A stretch of 64,000 nucleotides of DNA, taken from Gordius sp. MW1. Lineage: Eukaryota; Nematomorpha; Gordioida; Gordea; Gordiidae. The first letter of the stretch is position 1. The number at the start of each line of letters is the position of its first letter. Shown here piece by piece: positions 1,585-64,000 of this stretch. Where the stretch lies: contig OZ038526.1 of NCBI GenBank assembly GCA_964036665.1, positions 30,318,001 through 30,382,000 on the forward strand, written 5' to 3'. A program made the position numbers and the translations under genes. Under the pieces are notes generated by a model. The model did not search any database and was not told the origin of the DNA. It saw only the letters and a program-made list of their open reading frames with translations.

Positions 1585-6394
<4,810 letters not shown>

Positions 6395-7149
6395 ATTAGC
6401 TACACTAACCGGTTATTTCTGATCAGACGTTGACCTAACCCAAAATGGAGTGCAAAGATTTAAAAAGTTTGAAAAAAAAATCTTTGGACGAGTTGGCTCT
6501 TACTACATTAACATACATACAATACAGGCGCGTAGCCAGGATTTTCTCAAGGGAGAGAGGAAAGCTACAAAAAAAAAATTTAAACATTTTATTTGTAATT
6601 AAAAATAAAAATTAAGCAACCAAAAAGTCGCGCCCGCTGCTCGACGCAAATCTAACACAGCTGGCTAAATGCACAGCTGGCGAAAAGTCAAAATAATCAT
6701 TGCCCGTTTACTTGAAACCATCTCGGCGAAATGTCCCCCTGTTAAAAAATGTCCCCTAATTTAAATATGTCCCCCAGCAAAATTTATTCAACCAATCACA
6801 AAATGTCCCAGGGTAAATTCGGCAAGATTGTTTTCGGCAAGTCCAAAATAATTGCAAAAAAGTGTTCTTATCTATATAATTTATAATATATGATTTATAT
6901 ATACAATATATATTATATTTCTCATTGGAATTGCAATATATAGTAAAATTTAACAATCCTATAGAAAATTAGTGTGCTTAAATATACAATGGAGAACCTA
7001 CGAGTGATAATGATATATAACTTGCAAGATATAATTGTAAAGAAAAATAAGTTATATTCTTTATAGAAAATATTCAAAATTTAGTGATAAATTATATGTT
7101 GCTTAATTCTGGATTCTTTTTTGCCTAATATTAGTAAATTCTCCACATG
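6395..7149. other. Upstream flank of eRF1 with repeat fragments
   Basis: The region just upstream of the eRF1 start is probably its promoter, but no clear element was identified. At 6525-6556 lies a TIR fragment (CAGGCGCGTAGCCAGG then ATTTTCTCAAGGG), the partner of the fragment at 65-91. At about 6719-6850 there is a decayed relative of the 9-bp-TSD MITE family (repeated AATGTCCC, then TTCGGCAAGATTG) without intact ends. Confidence 0.45.
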
Positions 7150-7270
7150 TGCAATTCGCCAGGTGTGCAGGAACGCTCGGCCCACTCGGCCAAGGGGCGG
7201 GGCAGGCAACAGTCGTAAATTAAGATTTTTAAGTAGGCTTGGGCTGGCACCATAACAAAAATTTTTTATA

Positions 7271-8163
7271 TCTTATATAAAAAAATGAAACTATGTATGT
7301 GTGTGTGTATGTATGCCGCCACCAATTTTGAAGAACTACCGGACCGATTTGGCTCAAAATTTCACAGTTTATTCCTGGCACTCCGGAGCGTGTTTTAAGA
7401 TATGTTCCAGTCAAATCGGTCGAGTAGTTTTCGAGATATTTTGTTTTATGCGTTTTGACGTTGTATCGAACGTCAATCAAACGCCCTGCCCTCATCACGT
7501 ACTGCTGCGTATCTATCTATCGTGTAGGTAGTGTGATAAATGCAGTAGGCATCTGTTGCGGAAAATAAAAACTTTATACGCACTTTGAAACATTAAATAT
7601 CAAAGCCATTTTTTGCTTATTTTTCTTCACGTCAATTATTATTATTATTATAGGACGGTCGTGTCCCCCCCCCTCCTGCGTGGCTAAAAAAAATCAAATT
7701 CTGTCATTTTTCGCACGTTAAATAAGGAGAAAAATGAAAATAGTGCCAATAAATGTTGATATATCCAAGGGCGTAGCCAGGTTTTGAATTAAGGGCAGAT
7801 TAAAAAAAAAGGTCTTGACTCTGAGAGCAAAAAAAAAAAAAGGTCTCGACTATCCGAAAATTTCCCTGTGACCGTAATTTAAATTTCATTTTACCAAAAT
7901 AACGATTGGAAACATTAAATCAAAGTCATTTTTTGCTTATTTTTCACGTCAACTATTATTATTATAGGACGGTCGTGTCCCCTCCTGCGTGGCTAAATAA
8001 ATTAAAAAATCTAATTTTCTCATTAAAATGAAAATACTTTTAACAAAGTGCCAATAAATGTTGATATATCCATGGGCGTTAGTTTTAAATTTTCTTATTT
8101 AAATTTTTAATTTTTTTTAAATAATTTTTAATATGGCAAAACAACGTTTGCCGGGTCAGCTAG
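7271..8163 (+). mobile_element. Non-autonomous Helitron A
   Basis: The 5' end is TCTTATATAAAAAAATGAAA preceded by A. The 3' end has the hairpin GGCAAAACAACGTTTGCC followed by GGGTCAGCTAG and then T. This is the Helitron pattern: 5' TC, a 3' hairpin, a CTRR end and insertion between A and T with no target duplication. The uninterrupted homologue at about 27816-27840 reads TTTTTTATATAGTTTAC on the minus strand, exactly the two flanks joined. No Rep/helicase ORF is present, so it depends on a partner element. It carries an ACCGATTTGGCTCAAAATTT block and a short TATG/TG run near the 5' end, also present in Helitron B. Confidence 0.9.
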
Positions 8164-12698: not shown

Positions 12699-13048
12699 TT
12701 TCCCTTTTAAATATCTAATTCAGCCTTGTATGTATAACGTCATTATTGTATATGATGCTATAAATGAAACTGGCCGGGAAATGTCCGGTATTTTCAAAAC
12801 TATAAGGAATTTTAGGATTCTGAAAAGCTATTTTACCCCTGGCCGCTGGGAATCTATGGCTAAATTTTCGCGCGAATCGGGCCGGTAGTTTCAAAGTTTA
12901 GCCCTTTTTTAAAACGTAATGTCCGATATTTTAAAACTAAAAGGAATTTTAGGATTCTGAAAAAGCTATTTTACCCCTGGCCCTCCTGGGCATCTATGGC
13001 TAAATTTCGCGCGAATCGGGCCGGTAGTTTCAGAATTTAGTCCTTATC

Positions 13049-13852
13049 CACATACATACATACATACATACATACATACATACATACATACATACATACA
13101 TACATACATACATACATACATACATACATACATACATACATACATACATACATACATACATACATACATACATACATACATACATACATACATACATACA
13201 TACATACATACATACATACATACATACATACATACATACATACATACATACATACATACATACATACATACATACATACATACATACATACATACATACA
13301 TACATACATACATACATACATACATACATACATACATACATACATACATACATACATACATACATACATACATACATACATACATACATACATACATACA
13401 TACATACATACATACATACATACATACATACATACATACATACATACATACATACATACATACATACATACATACATACATACATACATACATACATACA
13501 TACATACATACATACATACATACATACATACATACATACATACATACATACATACATACATACATACATACATACATACATACATACATACATACATACA
13601 TACATACATACATACATACATACATACATACATACATACATACATACATACATACATACATACATACATACATACATACATACATACATACATACATACA
13701 TACATACATACATACATACATACATACATACATACATACATACATACATACATACATACATACATACATACATACATACATACATACATACATACATACA
13801 TACATACATACATACATACATACATACATACATACATACATACATACATACA
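13049..13852. repeat. Pure (CATA)n microsatellite, about 200 units
   Basis: About 800 bases of CATA without a visible interruption, followed by a short CA run (13851-13860). The long open frames over it (repeating Met-Tyr-Val-Cys) are artefacts of the repeat and do not represent genes. It occupies the same position as the short TATG/TG run at the 5' ends of Helitrons A and B, so it probably grew from the Helitron's own terminal sequence. Confidence 0.98.
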
Positions 13853-15010
13853 CACACACATACATAGACTTTACTTTATATATATAGATATAGAGTAAGT
13901 TTATTAATACCAAAAGTTAGAAGTCTAGTGTATTATCGTTAAGCATTAGTTTATATATAATTGTATAGAGGTTATTATGAATAACATTGTTAAATCGTAA
14001 GGTATTCAAACATCAACTTCAATGTCCCTTTTATATTCAAATTATAGTGAAGGGTGTCAATAGTGATATCCAAATTATAAACGTGCGCCAGTATTCTAAT
14101 TAGGGAATACTATACTAGGTTAGAGAAAATTCTGTTGGCGTTCAAATAGTGGGCGATCATGTTTTTAACGCCTTAAATGTATTGGATATTAATCATTGCT
14201 GCTTGCAACACTGATAGGTATATTAGTGTGGTCAAGAGAGTATTACTTGTCGATGAAGCTCCAGAAAATGTGTTAATGAAAGCTTTTGCTAGGCAATACA
14301 TATGGTGGCCTAGGATATCTAAAGCTATCGAAGAGAGGAGTAAAGGATGTGAATTATGCAAGTCCAATGCTTCTATGCCTCGTAGAGATAGGAGTGCGAA
14401 ATGACCGCGACCTAGGGAATGGGTTCACATAAATTTTTTGAATGGGAAAATAAAGAATACATCACGAAATTTCAGAAAATAACAAATATTTGTGCTACAC
14501 TGACCAAGGTTTTTAAAGAATTTGATAGATTCTTATGATTTTTTAGTATGCTTGTCATGGATTACGGCAGAGCGTTTATAGGCTTATAATTTAAAACTGT
14601 TTGCCAAACAAGTAAAATAAAGCATGTGTTGACGCCGCCCTAGTATCCAAGCCCAAATGGTCAGGTGGATCGGTGGTATGTGGGTATTGTAAAAAGTGGC
14701 TAAGAATGGCAAAATGGGAGAGTGATGGTGTTTGGTTAACTAAGTAGTTTTTTAACGCAGTGCCTGGTAGTTATCAACGGCCTCCTATCGGAATGGAATT
14801 TTTAGGTAGAAAATTAAGGTGTCCGTTAGATTTAATTAACAAGAAAAACATTACATTCAGGGAGCGGCTTAGTTGGAAATAAAATATAGACCACCAGGAG
14901 TCACTTTACACCAGGCCTAAAGGGTTTTTATCGCGTATAGTTGAAGGACTTAGTCCCAAGATTTTTAAAGTGCGCGTGCTGCATACAGTCAGATCGTTTA
15001 AGTGAGAATC

Positions 15011-21638: not shown

Positions 21639-21899
21639 ATGCTGCTATTAAATTACGTTGTGAAACTTATTATTTATAATGAAAATAATTTTTTGAATGG
21701 TAGATTTTTTTGCTGTTTCATAATTTATTCATTTTCTAATCTTTAAAATAATTATCTTCATTTAATTTTACAATTCAACAAATTTAACTTCTGAAATTTA
21801 AAAATAAAGCGAACTTCTCACCACAGACTTTGGATCGCAAAATAGTGCATTATTTCTTATATTGTTTGTTCATTTTAAATAGTTATTATATTCCATATT

Positions 21900-23840
21900 A
21901 TGAGCAAAAAGCAGAAAGAAACATTGGAAATTTTTTTTGATCTAAATAATCGCGGACCAGGAACTTCAAATATTAGTGAAGGTTCCGATGATGATACAGC
22001 GAAAAATGAAACGGAAAAAACCAATAGTCCTAAAACTAAAGGTATAAAATCAAGTAACAATAGAATTAGAAAATACTATCGTGATTATATTAAATATGGG
22101 TTTGTAAGCATAGAAGTTCGAGGAACTACAAAACCACAATGTGTTATATGTGGTGTAGTTCTCTCTAATGAATCAATGAAACCTAATAAATTGTGGAGGC
22201 ATTTAAATCTTAACCATGATAAATATAAAAATAAAAAGGAAGATTTTTTTATAAGAAAAAGAGATGAATTAAAAAATCAAAAGACGCTCATAAATGTGAC
22301 AACTACTACCAATAAAAATTTATTAAAAGCTTCATTTATTGCAGCTTTGTACATTGCAAAAGCAAAAAAACCATTTACTATAGCCGAAGAATTATTAAAA
22401 CCTGCCATGTTTAATATTTGTAAAGAGCTATTTGAACCCTTTGTGTCAAACAAAATTAAAGAAATACCTTTGTCAAATGATGCAATTTATAATAGAACTT
22501 TATTAATAGCTAATGATCTTCAGGAACAGTTAACTGGCTATATTAAAAATTCTCCTTGGTTCTCATTACAAATAGATGAATCTACAGATGTTTCTAACAG
22601 GAGCATTTGCTTAGGATACATTCGATTTATTGATTTTATAAAAATGGATATATCTGAAGAATTTCTCTTTTGCATAGACTTAGAAACAGATACAACAAGT
22701 GAAAATATATTTAACAAAATAGATTCCTTTCTGAATACTAATGGCTTACTCTGGAAAAACTGTGTTGGAATTTGCACAGATGGTGCTGCCTCTATGACTG
22801 GCTGTTATAAGGGCATTACATCAAGAATAAAACGTATTGCACATGCAAACATAACAACTACTCATTGTTTTATTCATAGGGAACAATTAGCCTCCAAGGA
22901 AATGAGTGAAGAATTGAATGAAGTTTTGATAATTTCAGTAAAGATTATAAATTTCATAAAAGGAAGTTCACTAAAGTCAAGATTATTTTCAATTTTTTGT
23001 GAAGAAGTTGGCGCAGATAATAGTTCTCTTTTATTTCACACAGAAGTGAGATGGCTATCACGAGGAAAAATCTTAACTCGTTTATTTGAATTGAGACTGG
23101 AAGTTGAACTTTTTTTAAATGATAAAAACTCCAGCCTATCAAGCTATTTTGATGACAATAATTGGGTCGCTAAATTGTCATATCTAGCGGATATTTTTAC
23201 AATTCTAAATCAGTTGAATATATCTATGCAAGGACCTAAATCTGATATTTTTACTATGCATAACAAAATTGAGGCTATGAAAATGAAATTACAAAGATGG
23301 ATTCAAAGAATAGACTCAAATATATATGAAATGTTTCCATTCTATTCACAACTAATCTCTGATTCAAAATTTCAATTCGAGAAAGAAAATGTAAATTACT
23401 TGATTAAATGTCATATTTTAAAATTAATTGATAAATTTGAAAAATATTTCCCTAATGATGAAGGTCACATTACAAAACTCTGGATTCAAGATCCATACAA
23501 CAATTATAAAAATACCAATTTATCATCAGATGATGAAGATTCATTATTAGAATTAATAAATGATTGTAATTTAAAATCTTTGTTTAAAACTAAAAGTTTG
23601 GCGCAAGTTTGGATACAAATTCGTGCAGAATATCCTCCATTATTTTCAGCAGCAATGCAAAATTTGCTGCCTTTCGCTAGTACATATTTGTGTGAAAAAG
23701 GTTTCTCAACTATGGTGGATATAAAAACTAAAAAACGCAATCGATTGCGACTAGATTCCTGCATGAGGATAGCATTACAATCAATTGAACCAAGAATTAA
23801 CAAATTGGTTGATGATGTTCAGCAGCAGAAATCTCATTAA
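21900..23840 (+). CDS. hAT-family transposase, 646 aa
   Basis: Cut-and-paste transposase of the hAT superfamily, similar in layout to domesticated ZBED5/FAM200/SCAND3 proteins. One uninterrupted exon. About residues 60-115 hold a BED-type zinc finger (CVIC ... HLNLNH). The RNase H-like core has QIDESTDVSNRS (first catalytic Asp, around residue 225), then CTDGAASMTG, the THCFIHREQLA segment, and TEVRWLSRGK. The C-terminal dimerisation part contains FASTYLCEKGFSTMVDIKTK and ends in QQQKSH. Length is normal for a complete transposase and no stop or frameshift is visible. The minus-strand frames inside it are shadows. Confidence 0.95.
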   Translation: MSKKQKETLEIFFDLNNRGPGTSNISEGSDDDTAKNETEKTNSPKTKGIKSSNNRIRKYYRDYIKYGFVSIEVRGTTKPQCVICGVVLSNESMKPNKLWRHLNLNHDKYKNKKEDFFIRKRDELKNQKTLINVTTTTNKNLLKASFIAALYIAKAKKPFTIAEELLKPAMFNICKELFEPFVSNKIKEIPLSNDAIYNRTLLIANDLQEQLTGYIKNSPWFSLQIDESTDVSNRSICLGYIRFIDFIKMDISEEFLFCIDLETDTTSENIFNKIDSFLNTNGLLWKNCVGICTDGAASMTGCYKGITSRIKRIAHANITTTHCFIHREQLASKEMSEELNEVLIISVKIINFIKGSSLKSRLFSIFCEEVGADNSSLLFHTEVRWLSRGKILTRLFELRLEVELFLNDKNSSLSSYFDDNNWVAKLSYLADIFTILNQLNISMQGPKSDIFTMHNKIEAMKMKLQRWIQRIDSNIYEMFPFYSQLISDSKFQFEKENVNYLIKCHILKLIDKFEKYFPNDEGHITKLWIQDPYNNYKNTNLSSDDEDSLLELINDCNLKSLFKTKSLAQVWIQIRAEYPPLFSAAMQNLLPFASTYLCEKGFSTMVDIKTKKRNRLRLDSCMRIALQSIEPRINKLVDDVQQQKSH

Positions 23841-57819: not shown

Positions 57820-60800
57820 TTACACCATAAAGTCAGTGTAATCAAAATTCTCTGTAAAAGATATTGTTTTCGTAACTTCTTTATTTTCGATTAAAGTTTC
57901 TGGCTGATAGTTTTGCTCGACAACGTTTTTCGATTTATTAGAGGACGATGAAAATATAGAAGTATATAAAGTGAGTCCATCTATGCCACTTTTTGCGCTA
58001 AAAGAGGAGCCTGTTCCACCAGATATTGTCCCGGAACCTGCTGTTTTACCGCTAGAATTTTTATCACTGGAGGAATAATTATTTCCTTCATATTCGTAAT
58101 CGTATGTGTTTTCATCATCATTCTCCGATTGATTATGAGGATAATCGTTTCCTAATCCTGTACCTGGCAATGGGCCTTTTTCTTTTGCAAGTTTTTGGTC
58201 GCTTTCCTTAATTACACTAATCTATGGAAAAATTAAGTCAAAATTAGCTAAAAAATAGTTTAATTAGAATTATGTAAGATTATCGAAACTGTTTTTTCCG
58301 ACGGCTCGCTAATCAATTTAATATATAATAGAAGTGGCCAATTTATCTTTTAGTTTGTTCATAAAATATAGCTTCATTCATACCGTAATCAAAAAAAAAA
58401 TAATTCTAATAAATTTGGAGGCAAAGCTGTATAAAAAACATTTAAAATTTATATTAAATTATAGCAATCGAATTACCCGATTTTTAACGAACCTTTTTCT
58501 TGCTACCATGTAAGCAGATAATGCGGTTAAACACGAAACAATTATAATTGCTCCGACAACATAACTCACTACCACTAATATAGATGTATTATACGTAACT
58601 ATATTTGATCCAGTTTGTTTATTTTCATCGAATTGCCTTGATTTTCCATTCTTGAGCATTCCAGAGGCTTTCTCTAGCGTGTCAATATTTTCGTTTAAAT
58701 TATCGTTTATTTTTTTGGGTCCGTAGGCGACTTTTTTGCATTCATCCCTCGATGAATCGTAGACGTACTGTTTTAAACACGACAAAGGCATGACGTACAA
58801 TAGCCAAGCACTAGCCTTGGTGCCGCCATCACTATACTCATAAGCCGCATGGTAGCACTTACGGTAATATGACTCTTTCATACCTATCGCAGTTGTTCTT
58901 GGGTTAAATTCTAGGGCTTGCATTTTGTGCAAAGCTGTGAAATTGCGAAAGATCTTGCGTCTCACGTTAGCCAATCGCCAAGAAGCCGATCCATCGGCAT
59001 GTTGTTTATAACAATAACTCTGGGTGTAGTTGGTGTCTCTCGTTTCAGATGGAATCAATTTTTGAACTAATCTAACCTGCTTCTCCGTTAAGTCACTATG
59101 TTTTTTATACTTGGCACCTACCAATATCAATAAAGAGCAAGTACAAATCAAATCGTTCCCCGAGACCGTTAACTCGTCAAGTTCCATGAAATTTATTTGC
59201 GGGGGCATGTATTCTAAAAAATTGTTATCTACATAAAGGGAATTTAATCTTGGTGGAAATTGACCTCCAAGCGTTGTTAATTTGTTAGACATTAAGGATA
59301 GAATTTGCAATTTATTGAGAGCAGCGAAGGCTTGTGCGTGAAGATATGTAATGGCGTTTTGTGATAAAAGGAGAACTTTTAAAGTGTCGTTTAGCCCGCT
59401 AAAGTACGCAGGTAAAATTTGAGTTAATAAATTAGACGATAAATCCAAAAATTGTAGCGTTTTAAAAGAAGCAAAAAAATTGTCGGCAATGTCTGTCAGG
59501 TAGCAAATTGTGAACCCTAAGTTTATGGACTTATTGGCTAGATCATAACCAAAATAATCAAAATTTAGATTCTTCAGCTTGGTTTTCGACACGTATATCG
59601 TGTCTGTAAGATTACTTAAATAGCCTAAAAAAGCTCTAGATGCCATTGCCTCGTTTGGAGAATAGTTTAATATGTTAACCAAGTTGACTCCGGTGGCATT
59701 AAGACTTTTCGCCATGCTAATCCCTGCTATGCTAGTTAAAGTTGAAAGAACACATGGTATTGAATAATCTATACAATTAATCCATCCACTTTCTGCATCA
59801 AATCGACAAACTTGTGGCATGGAACTGCTTTTGAAACATGGACTAACACCCTTTAAACTCCCTTTATCGTTCTCAGTCAAGTTATTCTTAAAATCTTTAA
59901 AAGACACTAAGATAACCTTAGATTTACTCGAGCCATTAAAATTTTCTATTTTGCATTGTAATTGATTCAAAATTTTTATGTCCTTTACATCCCCATTACC
60001 TAAAAGCTGCCGCTGGCTCAACCACAAATCAAACTTAAGCACCTTTTCATCACAAATAAAGGAGTTTTGGGCAAACTTAAATGATTTGAGGTTCAACGGC
60101 AAGTCGGGGATATAGTGTAGATCATTATTTGAAAAATCAAGGCACTTCAATTTTTCTCCAAATTTGAGATTAATTACCTCTTGGAGCTTATTATTTTGAA
60201 AAAATATTTCCTCCAAAGAGGTAATATAGGGAGAAGCTTGAAAATCCCAACTTTGCAACAAATTAAACTCCATATGAAGTGTTTTAAGACTAGGCAATCC
60301 GTAAAAATAATTATTTTTAATATAACTAATGCTATTATGATCCAGCTTTAATGTGATGAGTGCAAAATCACCACGAAAAGAATAATTACTCAAATGAGTT
60401 AGTTGGTTGTAACTTAAATCCAATACTTCGAGACTCAGCATCCCAGCAAAGGCGTCAATATCGAGCGTCGCTATTTGGTTAGCTGAAATGTTTAGTGTTA
60501 TCAAGGTAGAACAGCCGGTAAACTCGGAGACGCCGACCAAGGGTAATTGATTATTAGTTAACACGATGGTCCGAATGTTAGTAAATCTAACAAATTGATA
60601 TTTTCCAAGACTTCTTATAGTGGTATTATTAATGACCATTGAATCAAAATGTATAGGAGCAACCAAAGAATCATCTAACCCGAAATACTGACTTGAAACC
60701 GGACCGATAATAGCCAGTAACTCTGAATTATATGAATACTTTACAGAATTTCTATTCCACTTCATAAGGCATCCAAACAAATTCCATGGATTTAAATGTG

Positions 60801-61158
60801 TTATGCAAGAAGATCCTTGAATAGTGACGGCTGAAAGATTATAACAAAAATTTCCTAATGGATATGCTATCTCATCTGAGTATTGATCGATCAAGTTATT
60901 GATGTAAATAGAATATATTTCGAAGTTTTTGATATTTTTGGAGTGTATGTCTTTAAATATTACTTGACAAAAAGCTAGTATATCTTTGAATGTTACATTG
61001 TAACATGATATAATAAGGGATGTTGACATTTGATGCTGGCAACTAGCATTAATATAAGGAATATTAAATATTAGCTTTATGCAAAAAGGTAAGAAAATGA
61101 ATGTCGCAAATTTAGTTTTTCTCCATAACGAGCACAGATCAACTATTTTGGTGGGCAT
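57820..61158 (-). CDS. Leucine-rich-repeat transmembrane receptor 1, 1027 aa
   Basis: Exon 61158-58477 (894 codons) and exon 58221-57820 (133 codons plus stop), phase 0. Residues about 15-38 form a signal peptide (FATFIFLPFCIKLIFNIPY). Two LRR blocks follow, about residues 190-370 (TLNISANQIATLDIDAFAGM) and 550-680 (LQFLDLSSNLLTQILPAYF), the second capped by CTCS. Next is a Cys-containing juxtamembrane module (SYCYKQHADG ... YYRKCYHAAYEY ... PLSCLKQYVYDSSRDECKK), then one membrane helix at about 860-886 (VVGAIIIVSCLTALSAYMVA). The cytoplasmic exon is Ser/Asn/Gly-rich with an acidic Tyr patch (TYDYEYEGNNYSS) and ends ENFDYTDFMV. It is probably a cell-surface recognition or adhesion receptor; ligand unknown. 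No kinase or TIR domain. Tandem paralogue of the next gene. Confidence 0.9.
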
Positions 61159-61535
61159 ATAAACATTGCACTCACATTTGACACGTCTTAATACAATAGA
61201 AAAATGTGTATTAAAGCATTAAAAAAATTTAAGTTGATATTTGTTCTACATAACTATAATCGTGTCGTTCTAAAACATTAATTTAAAGAAAATAGGCATT
61301 TAAATATGAGCTAGTTTATATATCAACACAATTATATAAAAAAACGTATTAAATTATATCTTGTCCGAATGATATAAATGTTTTTTTAGTATACATGTAA
61401 AAATTTAATCGCAGCAAACAATTAATTATTTTTATAATTGTCACCAAAATTAAGTTGGCTCAAGTTTAGATTAACTCCATGTTTTTGAAGTTTAGACAAA
61501 TTACATAGCATTAGATTTTTAAATTAACTTTAACA
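61159..61535. other. Spacer between the two LRR receptor genes
   Basis: 377 bases of AT-rich sequence. It must contain the promoter of receptor 1 and the 3' end of receptor 2. No specific element was recognised. Confidence 0.5.
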
Positions 61536-64000
61536 TTAATTCATAAAATCGGTATAATCAAAATGTTCTTTGAAATAAAGTATGCTATCAAGTTTTTGTC
61601 GCTCGATTTCATTGATTGACAAACGTAAATTGTTTGATGCGATGTCATTAGGCAAGGCTGATGGTTTGCCATCTTTGCCAAATGTGTCAACGAGAGTAGC
61701 TAAATTATAATTGATTTTATCGTCTACTTTTTCGTAATGCTGTTTTTCATGATCCAAATCTGACTTTTTGTTTTTCCTCCTCTTTTTACGCCCAGCATGA
61801 ATCTCGTTACTGCTGCTTTCGTGCTCTGAAGAATGGTAACCATCTGAAGATGTGTTAGGAAATATTGAAGATCTAGTTGCGCTACTTCTAGCATCAGAGC
61901 TTAAGGCTGTTGAGTTAGTTCCACTATGGCCCCTGCTTCCGCCCGATGTATAGGTATCGCTTTCTGTTTTATCGTAGTAATATTCGTAAGAATTATCATC
62001 TTGACTTTCGTAACAACCATCATTTGCAATATTAGGCTTAAGATTGTTTACAGCGACCGGCAAAGTTGATAGCTTTTTAATGGATTTGGCTTGGCGATAT
62101 TTGTAGGCAACAAACGCGATCAATAAGAAAAGTATGAAAAATGCAATGAGACTAAACAATATAATGAGTGCAAGGAATGCTATTGGATGAGTGGTCCGAA
62201 AAGCTTTCCATCCATATTCCACATTATGCTTCGACTTTTGACTAAAATTTTCAAAATATAATTTATAAATTATATGATTTAATTTGTATAATTTTACCTT
62301 TCTGCATTATCATTCGAGTTGAATGTATTATTGGTTTCATTAAAATTCGGAGAGAATGGAGTGGTTAAAGATTTCAAATTGTTTATCATATCCTCGTTTG
62401 CTGATTCACATTCCCTTTTTACGTCTGCATACCATGGCTTGCTTAAACAATCAACCCTTATATAGTATTTTCTATATAAAAATTCCCCCATTTTATACAT
62501 ACTGTCCACATCATGCCAAGCACAATCTTTTATTTCATCCGTTTTTCCTGGGCCATCGTTTCGAAAAAAAAGAACATTGTTACGTTGCATAAATTGTTCC
62601 CTTTCGTTCCATTTGCTGGAATCATTGCCAGCAGCACGGCCAATTTGACCTCGAAACAAAGATTCGGCTGTTAATTTGTAACAAAACGTTTGATAATAAG
62701 CCGATTGAGTCATTTTTAAACCAAAGTATTTTGTAGGCAAGTCTTTCATAGATGTAGCCTCTCCAGGCTTAGGTCCATATCCTTTTTGTGCCATGTACAA
62801 GTGTGAACAAGAACAAATCATATCATTGTAAGCCAGTGTCAATTGATCCATATCTCTGGCAACTAGGTACATTGGGACAGTAGAAATCATATTCACATCT
62901 AGGTAAAGGGTAAGAAGCAAAGGGCTAAAAGCATCATCTGGTAGCCTCTTAATTAAATTGTTACGGAGAGATAGATATTTAAGTTTTTTCATCACAGTCA
63001 TGGCATTCTCTTGTATGGTGACTATAAAATTATTTTCGATAATTAAAATTTCTAAAGTCATATTTAAGTGACTCCAATAGTTAGCTTCAATTGTGGTAAG
63101 GCTGTTATAGGACAAATCCAAAATACGCAAGTTGGTAAAATTTGCGAAGAATTCTTTGCTTATCTTACTAACACAATTAGCTAGCAATATTAATTGTGAT
63201 AACTGTCTCAGCCCAGGGGCAAGATATCGTTCACTTAAATCGCAAATTTGTGAATTTGATAGCGTTAACGAATTTATGTTATAGTTTTTTAAGCTATCGA
63301 GAAGATTTTTTAGTGCCGGGTAAAAATCAAGCGGATAATGCACTAAATGGTTAAAAATAAACGTCTTCGAGTATGTAATAACACCCGAATTGTTTTTCAG
63401 CATCTTTTCAACGCACATTGGACTAACCCGCACACATTCAAAGGATGTTGATTTATCGAAACATCTAGAAGCACTTTCCTTACACCAAGGATCCTCGTTA
63501 TTGTTTAATATTGATTGATAAGTTTCATCTTTTAATAAATTTGAAATTTTTGTTTTGTTTTTATTCGTTCTATGTGTACACGTTAGCGATTTCAATTCCT
63601 CTATCGTATTTTCAAATTCCTTGCCTTCCTTACCTTTAGACCATTTTTGTATCCATTTGTATAATAAGTAGGATGAGGCATCACAATTTAAATTATTGTT
63701 GCCTAACCCTATATATTTTATTGATAGAGGTATGTTAAAAGGGTAAGTTAGTGATGTTAAGAAGTTACTAGACAAATTCAAACTCTTTAAACGCGACGCT
63801 TTCAAAATGCCCGGTATGAACTGTAATAAATTGTTTTGTAAATGTAATGTTTCAATAGTTTCCCAGAATAAAGGAACATTAAGGCCCAAATGAGTTAATC
63901 TGTTATTTTGTAGATGCAACTCTTTTAAGTTGACGACCTTTATGACATCAGCAATGTCCAAAATCTCGATGACGTTGTTATCGAGATACAGCATTTGTAA
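61536..64000 (-). CDS. Leucine-rich-repeat transmembrane receptor 2 (5' end outside window)
   Basis: Exon running from the window edge to 62298, then exon 62241-61536 (join in phase 2, AG/T). The reading frame is open at base 64000, so the N-terminus is missing. Layout parallels receptor 1: an LRR block at the edge (LKELHLQNNRLTHLGLNVPL), a Cys-bearing linker (CVRVSPMCVEKM), a second LRR block (LRILDLSYNSLTTIEANYW), the cap CSCSHLYM, the juxtamembrane module (FCYKL ... DCAWHDV ... VDCLSKPWYADVKRECESA), then a membrane helix in exon 2 (IAFLALIILFSLIAFFILFL). The cytoplasmic tail has SRGHSGTNSTALSSDARSSA, a basic cluster GRKKRRKNKKS, and ends KEHFDYTDFMN. The join intron is 56 nt. Confidence 0.9.

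Follow-up and report, generated by a model that had tools for sequence, protein, structure and literature searches.

A neighboring pair of predicted TIR-less, Toll-like LRR receptors with a conserved tyrosine-centered motif in the cytoplasmic tail

Two neighboring genes on the minus strand of the window (the whole stretch of 64,000 nucleotides analyzed here) encode predicted single-span receptors of 1027 (gene 1) and 1080 residues (gene 2), and the unusual part of these receptors is a conserved tail motif. With somewhat less than even confidence, we tentatively regard them as TIR-less Toll-like surface receptors which may act through a long tail carrying a conserved tyrosine-centered docking motif, E-x-F-D-Y-T-D-F-(M/L). 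The features of the two genes are listed below.

57820-61158, minus strand: gene 1, whole, with one intron; from the frame and splice consensus.
58477..61158, minus strand: gene 1 exon A, a stop-free open frame of 894 codons with the N-terminal region, an LRR ectodomain bearing two putative caps, and the transmembrane (TM) segment; landmarks read from the open frame are the ATG at 61158 and a GT donor.
58738..59145, minus strand: gene 1 putative six-cysteine enlarged LRRCT-like cap, residues 672-807; from Cys positions, coordinates by arithmetic.
58525..58581, minus strand: gene 1 predicted TM segment, residues 860-878; hydropathy 2.69 over 19 residues, coordinates by arithmetic.
58222..58476, minus strand: gene 1 predicted intron, phase 0, GT..AG; from the frame and splice consensus.
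57820..58221, minus strand: gene 1 exon B, cytoplasmic tail, stop codon 57820-57822; no Pfam family.
57826..57846, minus strand: gene 1 FDYTDFM motif, then one residue (V); from the translation.
61536 to 64834, minus strand: gene 2, whole, with one intron; its start lies 834 bases past the window.
62298..64000, minus strand: gene 2 exon A, in-window part of an open frame that runs on to 64834 outside.
62408..62815, minus strand: gene 2 putative six-cysteine enlarged LRRCT-like cap, residues 674-809; from Cys positions, coordinates by arithmetic.
62242..62297, minus strand: gene 2 predicted intron of 56 bases, phase 2, GT..AG; from the frame and splice consensus.
61536..62241, minus strand: gene 2 exon B, TM segment and cytoplasmic tail, stop codon 61536-61538; no Pfam family over the cut-off.
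62118..62174, minus strand: gene 2 predicted TM segment, residues 869-887; hydropathy 3.32 over 19 residues, coordinates by arithmetic.
61542..61562, minus strand: gene 2 FDYTDFM motif, then one residue (N); from the translation.

The two genes are separated by a gap of 377 bases. Pfam identified LRR_8 in the frame containing exon A of gene 1 (E 2.3e-33) and, using part of the gene, in gene 2 (E 1.1e-21), and the ectodomains are 27% identical over their matched stretch. The initial, sequence-only reading had described two divergent genes whose products both finish with E(N/H)FDYTDFM and one further residue, which is borne out at the sequence level. It had also assigned the tail to the final exon, and this holds for both genes, although they have no common exon structure: the final exon of gene 2 also holds the membrane span, and the introns do not correspond, being located after the TM segment in gene 1 (phase 0) and before it in gene 2 (phase 2), while a third carrier of the motif, described below, is one open frame. 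A larger tandem cluster of such receptors, suggested in the same reading, had to be rejected, as two copies were found at the locus. Apart from the remainder of gene 2, no LRR frame was seen among the open frames of at least 90 residues in the 29 kb past the window, and a genome search with gene 1 gave, among the matches listed at its own locus, only genes 1 and 2.

Ahead of the membrane span, both proteins contain the cysteine module that had been pointed out earlier, with six cysteines in nearly equal spacing (positions 672-674-716-768-794-807 in gene 1 and 674-676-718-771-796-809 in gene 2). We read this module as a probable enlarged second LRRCT-like cap; the alignments show cysteine patterns for a pair of caps, but Pfam reported no LRRCT or LRRNT family. 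Since the third motif carrier has four cysteines in the cap, the last two being missing, the six-cysteine form is special to the pair.

By scanning the 212 Mb genome for exact matches to E-x-FDY(T/S)DF-(hydrophobic), we obtained three listed matches, all three in LRR receptors, namely genes 1 and 2 and a receptor on contig C7 (in the region C7:20062200-20065500), with the consensus E-x-F-D-Y-T-D-F-(M/L); such scans are blind to a motif split by an intron, and their counts are lower bounds. The shorter pattern FDYTDF was found in at least eight places (reversed control: one), i.e. the three receptors and five frames of 21-65 residues, all reading FDYTDFCHK, which look like one dispersed repeat. 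Three places with one mismatch were rejected, those at C5:10.29 and C8:6.25 Mb because their open frames have only 23 and 37 residues, respectively, and that at C4:13.56 Mb because the motif lies in no open frame of at least 15 residues. The string FDYTDF was not found in the literature searched for it.

The tails are long and of low-complexity character, and by eye all three run from an acidic/Tyr stretch through a Ser/Thr/Gly stretch to the motif. Aligned as a whole, the tails of genes 1 and 2 score mildly above shuffles (8 out of 2000 reach the score), while their common 7-mer FDYTDFM was reached in none of 2000 shuffles of one tail, and the two 6-mers shared between tails in 1 and 3 out of 2000, respectively. 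As a protein query against the genome (E up to 10), the gene 2 tail matched itself only and missed the other two tails, and this search is thus insensitive. Across the six motif codons of the three genes, 4 out of 18 columns differ, all of them at third positions, a restriction with a chance of about 0.005 by arithmetic. Because the codons change only there, the pattern points to selection acting on the protein sequence of the motif. The adjoining position of genes 1 and 2, 377 bases apart, is what a recent duplication or gene conversion leaving an identical patch without selection might be expected to produce, but this explanation is hardly credible and was rejected on account of the synonymous differences: between the gene pairs, 3/6, 2/6 and 3/6 of the motif third positions differ with the protein unchanged, the ectodomains have diverged to the 27% identity given above, and the third carrier is situated on another contig. 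Constraint of this kind in the tail argues for working genes, and is of use in distinguishing genuine receptors from decayed Tolls.

The third carrier is an LRR receptor very divergent from the pair (LRR_8, E 4.1e-33). Judged by hydropathy only, a single strong hydrophobic stretch lies past the ectodomain in each of the three carriers; the C7 protein has two more segments, one at the N-terminus and a weak one within an LRR. In this protein, 25 residues follow FDYTDF. The motif is thereby internal, which marks it as a cytoplasmic linear motif rather than the C-terminal ligand that had been considered at the outset. A ligand of a PDZ-type domain would suit the ends of genes 1 and 2, one residue past FDYTDFM, but the final residues differ (V versus N), and the internal motif of the third carrier led us to reject this very improbable reading, which could stand only if the third gene were spliced immediately behind the motif.

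The motif is not general to LRR receptors of this layout, since five other LRR receptor-like frames are without it, some of which may miss a tail exon: four were scored and have no TIR by Pfam (C1:21.58, C1:21.50, C1:27.50 and C4:16.88 Mb), and the fifth was judged by eye (C1:17.97 Mb). A degenerate fourth motif in the tail at C1:21.50 Mb, HENYNYDDL, was rejected, its score being reached by 349 out of 2000 shuffles. An ectodomain tree of nine proteins, with long branches and no node starred, grouped genes 1 and 2 (80/91) and did not join the third carrier to them; it is consequently likely, short of shown, that the three carriers have the motif by common descent.

In the action that we propose, the ectodomain would bind a ligand outside the cell. 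Upon this binding, or upon clustering, the tyrosine within its acidic-hydrophobic FDY context would become phosphorylated, and an adaptor of the SH2 type or similar would dock at the phosphotyrosine, replacing the TIR/MyD88 route. A common partner may explain why the motif residues were retained as the ectodomain and the remaining tail sequence changed. That the motif is a candidate site for a cytoplasmic partner, as first proposed from the pair, is supported by its recurrence in the third, very divergent receptor, and by the longer form being without an exact match elsewhere among the genome matches listed. Counting against docking, the sequence analysis linked the receptor genes to no kinase, SH2 adaptor or ligand. 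The ITIM consensus is (I/V/L/S)xYxx(I/V/L), and its strict form does not cover FDYTDF, which has F at both hydrophobic positions.

Around the tyrosine, F-2, D-1, T+1 and D+2 are kept. The retention of F, D, Y, T, D and F together, and not of the tyrosine alone, would also fit a partner independent of tyrosine or phosphorylation, e.g. a cytoskeletal or ubiquitin-pathway adaptor with a pocket for an aromatic-acidic peptide; we know of no class that fits the motif, and consider such a partner improbable. Somewhat less doubtful, yet still unlikely, is that YTDF is a constitutive YXXPhi endocytic or sorting signal, read by AP-2 mu or another AP complex, in which case the receptors would be recycled adhesion receptors or internalizing receptors of the scavenger type. 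YTDF fits YXXPhi in all three tails as a sequence match (Phi being bulky and hydrophobic by the definition in PMC2882754), a sorting signal needs no fixed distance from the C-terminus, and adaptor mu-type domains are present in the genome (12 matched stretches). However, both x positions and the residues before the tyrosine are kept beyond what a bare YXXPhi needs, and the three tails have 2, 2 and 3 YXXPhi matches including YTDF, which makes the match alone weak. We infer that tyrosine docking is the most likely role, with AP-2 sorting second. It is also possible, at a confidence further below even, that the receptors represent a small lineage family with a Toll-type ectodomain (about 20-27% identity between ectodomains) and no TIR, which signals or traffics via the previously undescribed E-x-FDYTDF-(M/L) at any C-terminal distance. 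The conserved motif gives a starting point for working out how receptors of this kind could act when there is no TIR route, and its peptide can serve as bait for the partner.

No TIR was called by Pfam in genes 1 and 2, nor in the 911 scanned residues of the third carrier, tail included. The whole-genome Pfam search gave no TIR match either, and was insensitive, as it missed a sub-threshold TIR in the genome's own Toll candidate (L047). A profile of seven such ectodomains placed a TIR-domain protein and TLR3 at the top ranks against PDB, whereas single-sequence searches ranked first a generic LRR protein, the acid labile subunit of the IGF-binding complex, and not a Toll; Toll kinship consequently rests more on layout than on sequence. 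The NCBIfam matches are LRR resemblances, far below the cut-offs.

Among other observations on the genome, the mitochondrial contig has 14,798 bp (8,000 read) with cob(+), rRNA(-), nad1(-), cox1, cox2, atp6 and cox3(+), these names being taken from translations and cox1 alone checked against PDB. CCCTAA repeats make up the initial 400 bases of both C1 and C8. Arthropods typically have the telomere repeat TTAGG, and an arthropod origin is therefore not established.

The initial impression of an architecture matching no named family did not hold. In a published survey (PMC8609888), TLR-like, LRR-only proteins combine an LRR ectodomain that has two or more Cys-rich caps (the mcc shape) with one span and no TIR, and the survey keeps Toll-like proteins that lack TIR separate from TLRs; in that usage, the predicted pair are TLR-like, LRR-only proteins. 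Onychophoran LRR-only homologs are on record (PMC7056985). With mcc (P-type) Toll and Toll-like receptors, the receptors described here share the LRR ectodomain, one span and, putatively, two Cys-rich caps, the second of them beside the membrane; unlike them, they are without TIR and have a long tail with E-x-FDYTDF-(M/L). The Toll candidate L047 (C8:20.03 Mb, 1578 aa) likewise combines an LRR ectodomain with what looks by eye like one hydrophobic span ahead of the cytoplasmic part, but it has a weak, sub-threshold TIR-like domain, and against the tail motif its best-scoring window does not stand out from shuffles, of which 468 out of 500 reach it. The published TLR-like LRR-only proteins are alike in the Toll-like LRR ectodomain without TIR, while the tail motif and the enlarged six-Cys cap are absent from their descriptions in the available parts of PMC8609888 and PMC7056985. 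Lastly, the amphioxus phagocytic receptor FrLRR, compared by its description in PMC10199209, is predicted to be GPI-anchored, with Slit2-type LRR and a folate-receptor domain, and differs in this from the present receptors, but it too is a surface LRR receptor, and one linked to a Grb2 route instead of TIR.

The two LRR receptor genes at the end of the window lie in the same direction, both on the minus strand, with 377 bases between them. Their exon joins are predicted from reading frame and splice consensus, as follows.

Gene 1 start: ATG at 61158, minus strand, from the frame; predicted product of 1027 residues
Gene 1 exon A: 61158 to 58477, minus strand, open frame and splice consensus
Gene 1 intron: 58222-58476, minus strand, phase 0, frame and splice consensus
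Gene 1 exon B: up to the stop at 57820, minus strand, frame and splice consensus
Gene 2 start: ATG at 64834 on the scale of the window, past its end in the adjoining DNA L003, minus strand; predicted product of 1080 residues
Gene 2 exon A: 64834 to 62298, minus strand, open frame and splice consensus
Gene 2 intron: 62242-62297, minus strand, phase 2, frame and splice consensus
Gene 2 exon B: up to the stop at 61536, minus strand, frame and splice consensus

LRRs were found by Pfam in both proteins, each of which has a single strong hydrophobic segment (residues 860-878 in gene 1, 869-887 in gene 2), and neither tail contains a TIR or any other Pfam domain above cut-off. As the sequence-only reading had held, both receptors end in a shared motif plus one residue, namely SFTENFDYTDFM-V in gene 1 and YFKEHFDYTDFM-N in gene 2. 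By searching the genome with gene 1, a third receptor was found on another contig (C7:20062231-20065428, minus strand), in one open frame giving 1052 residues when counted from a methionine of our choosing. Its tail is EFKERFDYTDFL, and since 25 residues separate FDYTDF from the stop, the motif is internal here, which contradicts both the proposed C-terminal ligand and PDZ binding.

The tail motif is constrained at the protein level, and its place is not tied to the C-terminus. The longest word common to two tails measures seven residues for genes 1 and 2 and six for each of the other pairs, lengths equalled by 0, 1 and 3 of 2000 tail shuffles, respectively. Whole-tail local alignment scores were equalled by 8 (genes 1 and 2), 0 and 0 of 2000 shuffles; as 8 shuffles reach the score of genes 1 and 2, these tails are barely alike outside the motif. 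Across the three receptors, 4 of the 18 FDYTDF codon columns vary, all at third positions, an outcome expected from random placement in 15/3060 cases (~0.005, by hand arithmetic). Unselected gene conversion as the source of the shared patch is contradicted.

The 212 Mb assembly was scanned for the motif, with all pattern counts being lower bounds; an intron-interrupted motif is invisible to the scan. Judged by exact matches to E-x-F-D-Y-(T/S)-D-F-(hydrophobic), whose degenerate codons also let in a few other residues at the T/S position, the motif is confined to these receptors (at least three matches listed, 3/3 in the receptors). With up to two mismatches allowed, the pattern gave at least 45 places and its reversed control at least 146, which marks the weaker matches as background. 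Of the three one-mismatch places, two fall within open frames 23 and 37 residues long; at the remaining one, no open frame of 15 residues or more contains the motif. FDYTDF itself occurs at 8 places (reversed control: 1): besides the three receptors there are five others, which sit in open frames of 21-65 residues. These five (fetched stretches L034, L035, L036, L037 and L039) all run on as FDYTDFCHK, and are probably one dispersed repeat that carries the six-residue word by chance.

The motif would serve as a docking site centred on its tyrosine. Its main rival function is AP-2 sorting, with YTDF read as a YXXPhi signal as defined in PMC2882754; the residues kept on both sides of the tyrosine (F-2, D-1, T+1, D+2 and F+3) exceed what YXXPhi needs, and phosphotyrosine docking therefore appears the favoured reading.

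A Cys-spaced module before the membrane, also proposed for both receptors, was recovered: the second-cap cysteines fall at residues 672, 674, 716, 768, 794 and 807 in gene 1 and at 674, 676, 718, 771, 796 and 809 in gene 2, with successive spacings equal within one residue across approximately 135 residues. The third receptor has cap cysteines at 768, 770, 813 and 837, the first three spaced nearly as in the pair, and lacks the fifth and sixth. No LRRCT was called by Pfam for genes 1 and 2; the module is read as a putative LRRCT-type cap, enlarged in the pair.

Gene 1 gave 27 matched genomic stretches at E <= 0.001. The nearest is gene 2 (27% identity, E 7.9e-42), followed by the third receptor (E 2.1e-14, 21-24% identity in alignments), and many of the remainder resemble generic LRR. 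In an ectodomain tree of nine proteins, genes 1 and 2 group together at 80/91, with the third receptor unplaced. Searched singly against PDB, gene 1 and the third receptor each matched a generic LRR protein best, namely the acid labile subunit; a seven-sequence profile placed a TIR-domain protein and TLR3 at the top.

Further LRR receptor-like open frames (five): C1:21.58, C1:21.50, C1:27.50, C4:16.88 and C1:17.97 Mb

A Pfam scan of the first four found no TIR, and the motif was seen in none of the five (four scored against it, C1:17.97 by eye); the best motif-like window at C1:21.50 is at shuffle level (349/2000 shuffles reach its score). The C1:21.50 frame, an LRR receptor (L044, C1:21496001-21506000, ORF 4041-6848, minus strand), has a 220-residue tail rich in tyrosines and acidic residues.

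A protein of 1578 residues in a single open frame (L047, C8:20027001-20037000, ORF 3393-8126, minus strand) is a Toll candidate with a strongly diverged, weak TIR-like domain. TIR_2 scored 15.3 bits in a partial scan and 14.6 bits with the whole protein, both under the Pfam cut-off, and the TIR structures of TLR6, TLR1 and TLR2 were matched in PDB at E 0.008-0.08, below an unrelated flagellar protein as top match. Its last 236 residues had no other genome match at E <= 1, i.e. no second domain copy. Rel-homology (one locus), Death (one match) and AP-mu type domains occur in the genome.

Elsewhere in the window, an open frame of 653 residues (21879-23840, plus strand) resembles a hAT-type transposase, with DUF4371 and a hAT dimerisation region both below cut-off, and a long tract at ~12961-13916, with all six frames open and YIHT/YVCM words repeated, is a tandem simple repeat. 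The first 400 bases of contigs C1 (L048, C1:1-400) and C8 (L049, C8:1-400) consist of CCCTAA repeats; these starts are TTAGGG-type telomeres. The part of the mitochondrial contig covered carries cox1-cox2-atp6-cox3 on one strand and nad1 and an rRNA on the opposite one (names from translations).

The architecture of the pair had not been recognised as a named family. In PMC8609888, TIR-less proteins are classed as TLR-like, LRR-only rather than as TLRs, and more than one LRRCT defines the mcc shape; the TIR-less LRR architecture is thus already covered, and all three receptors would fall under TLR-like, LRR-only. Unusual Toll systems are already known in Ecdysozoa: according to PMC7056985, an onychophoran has LRR-only homologues, and intracellular Toll components were not detected in tardigrades and a nematomorph.
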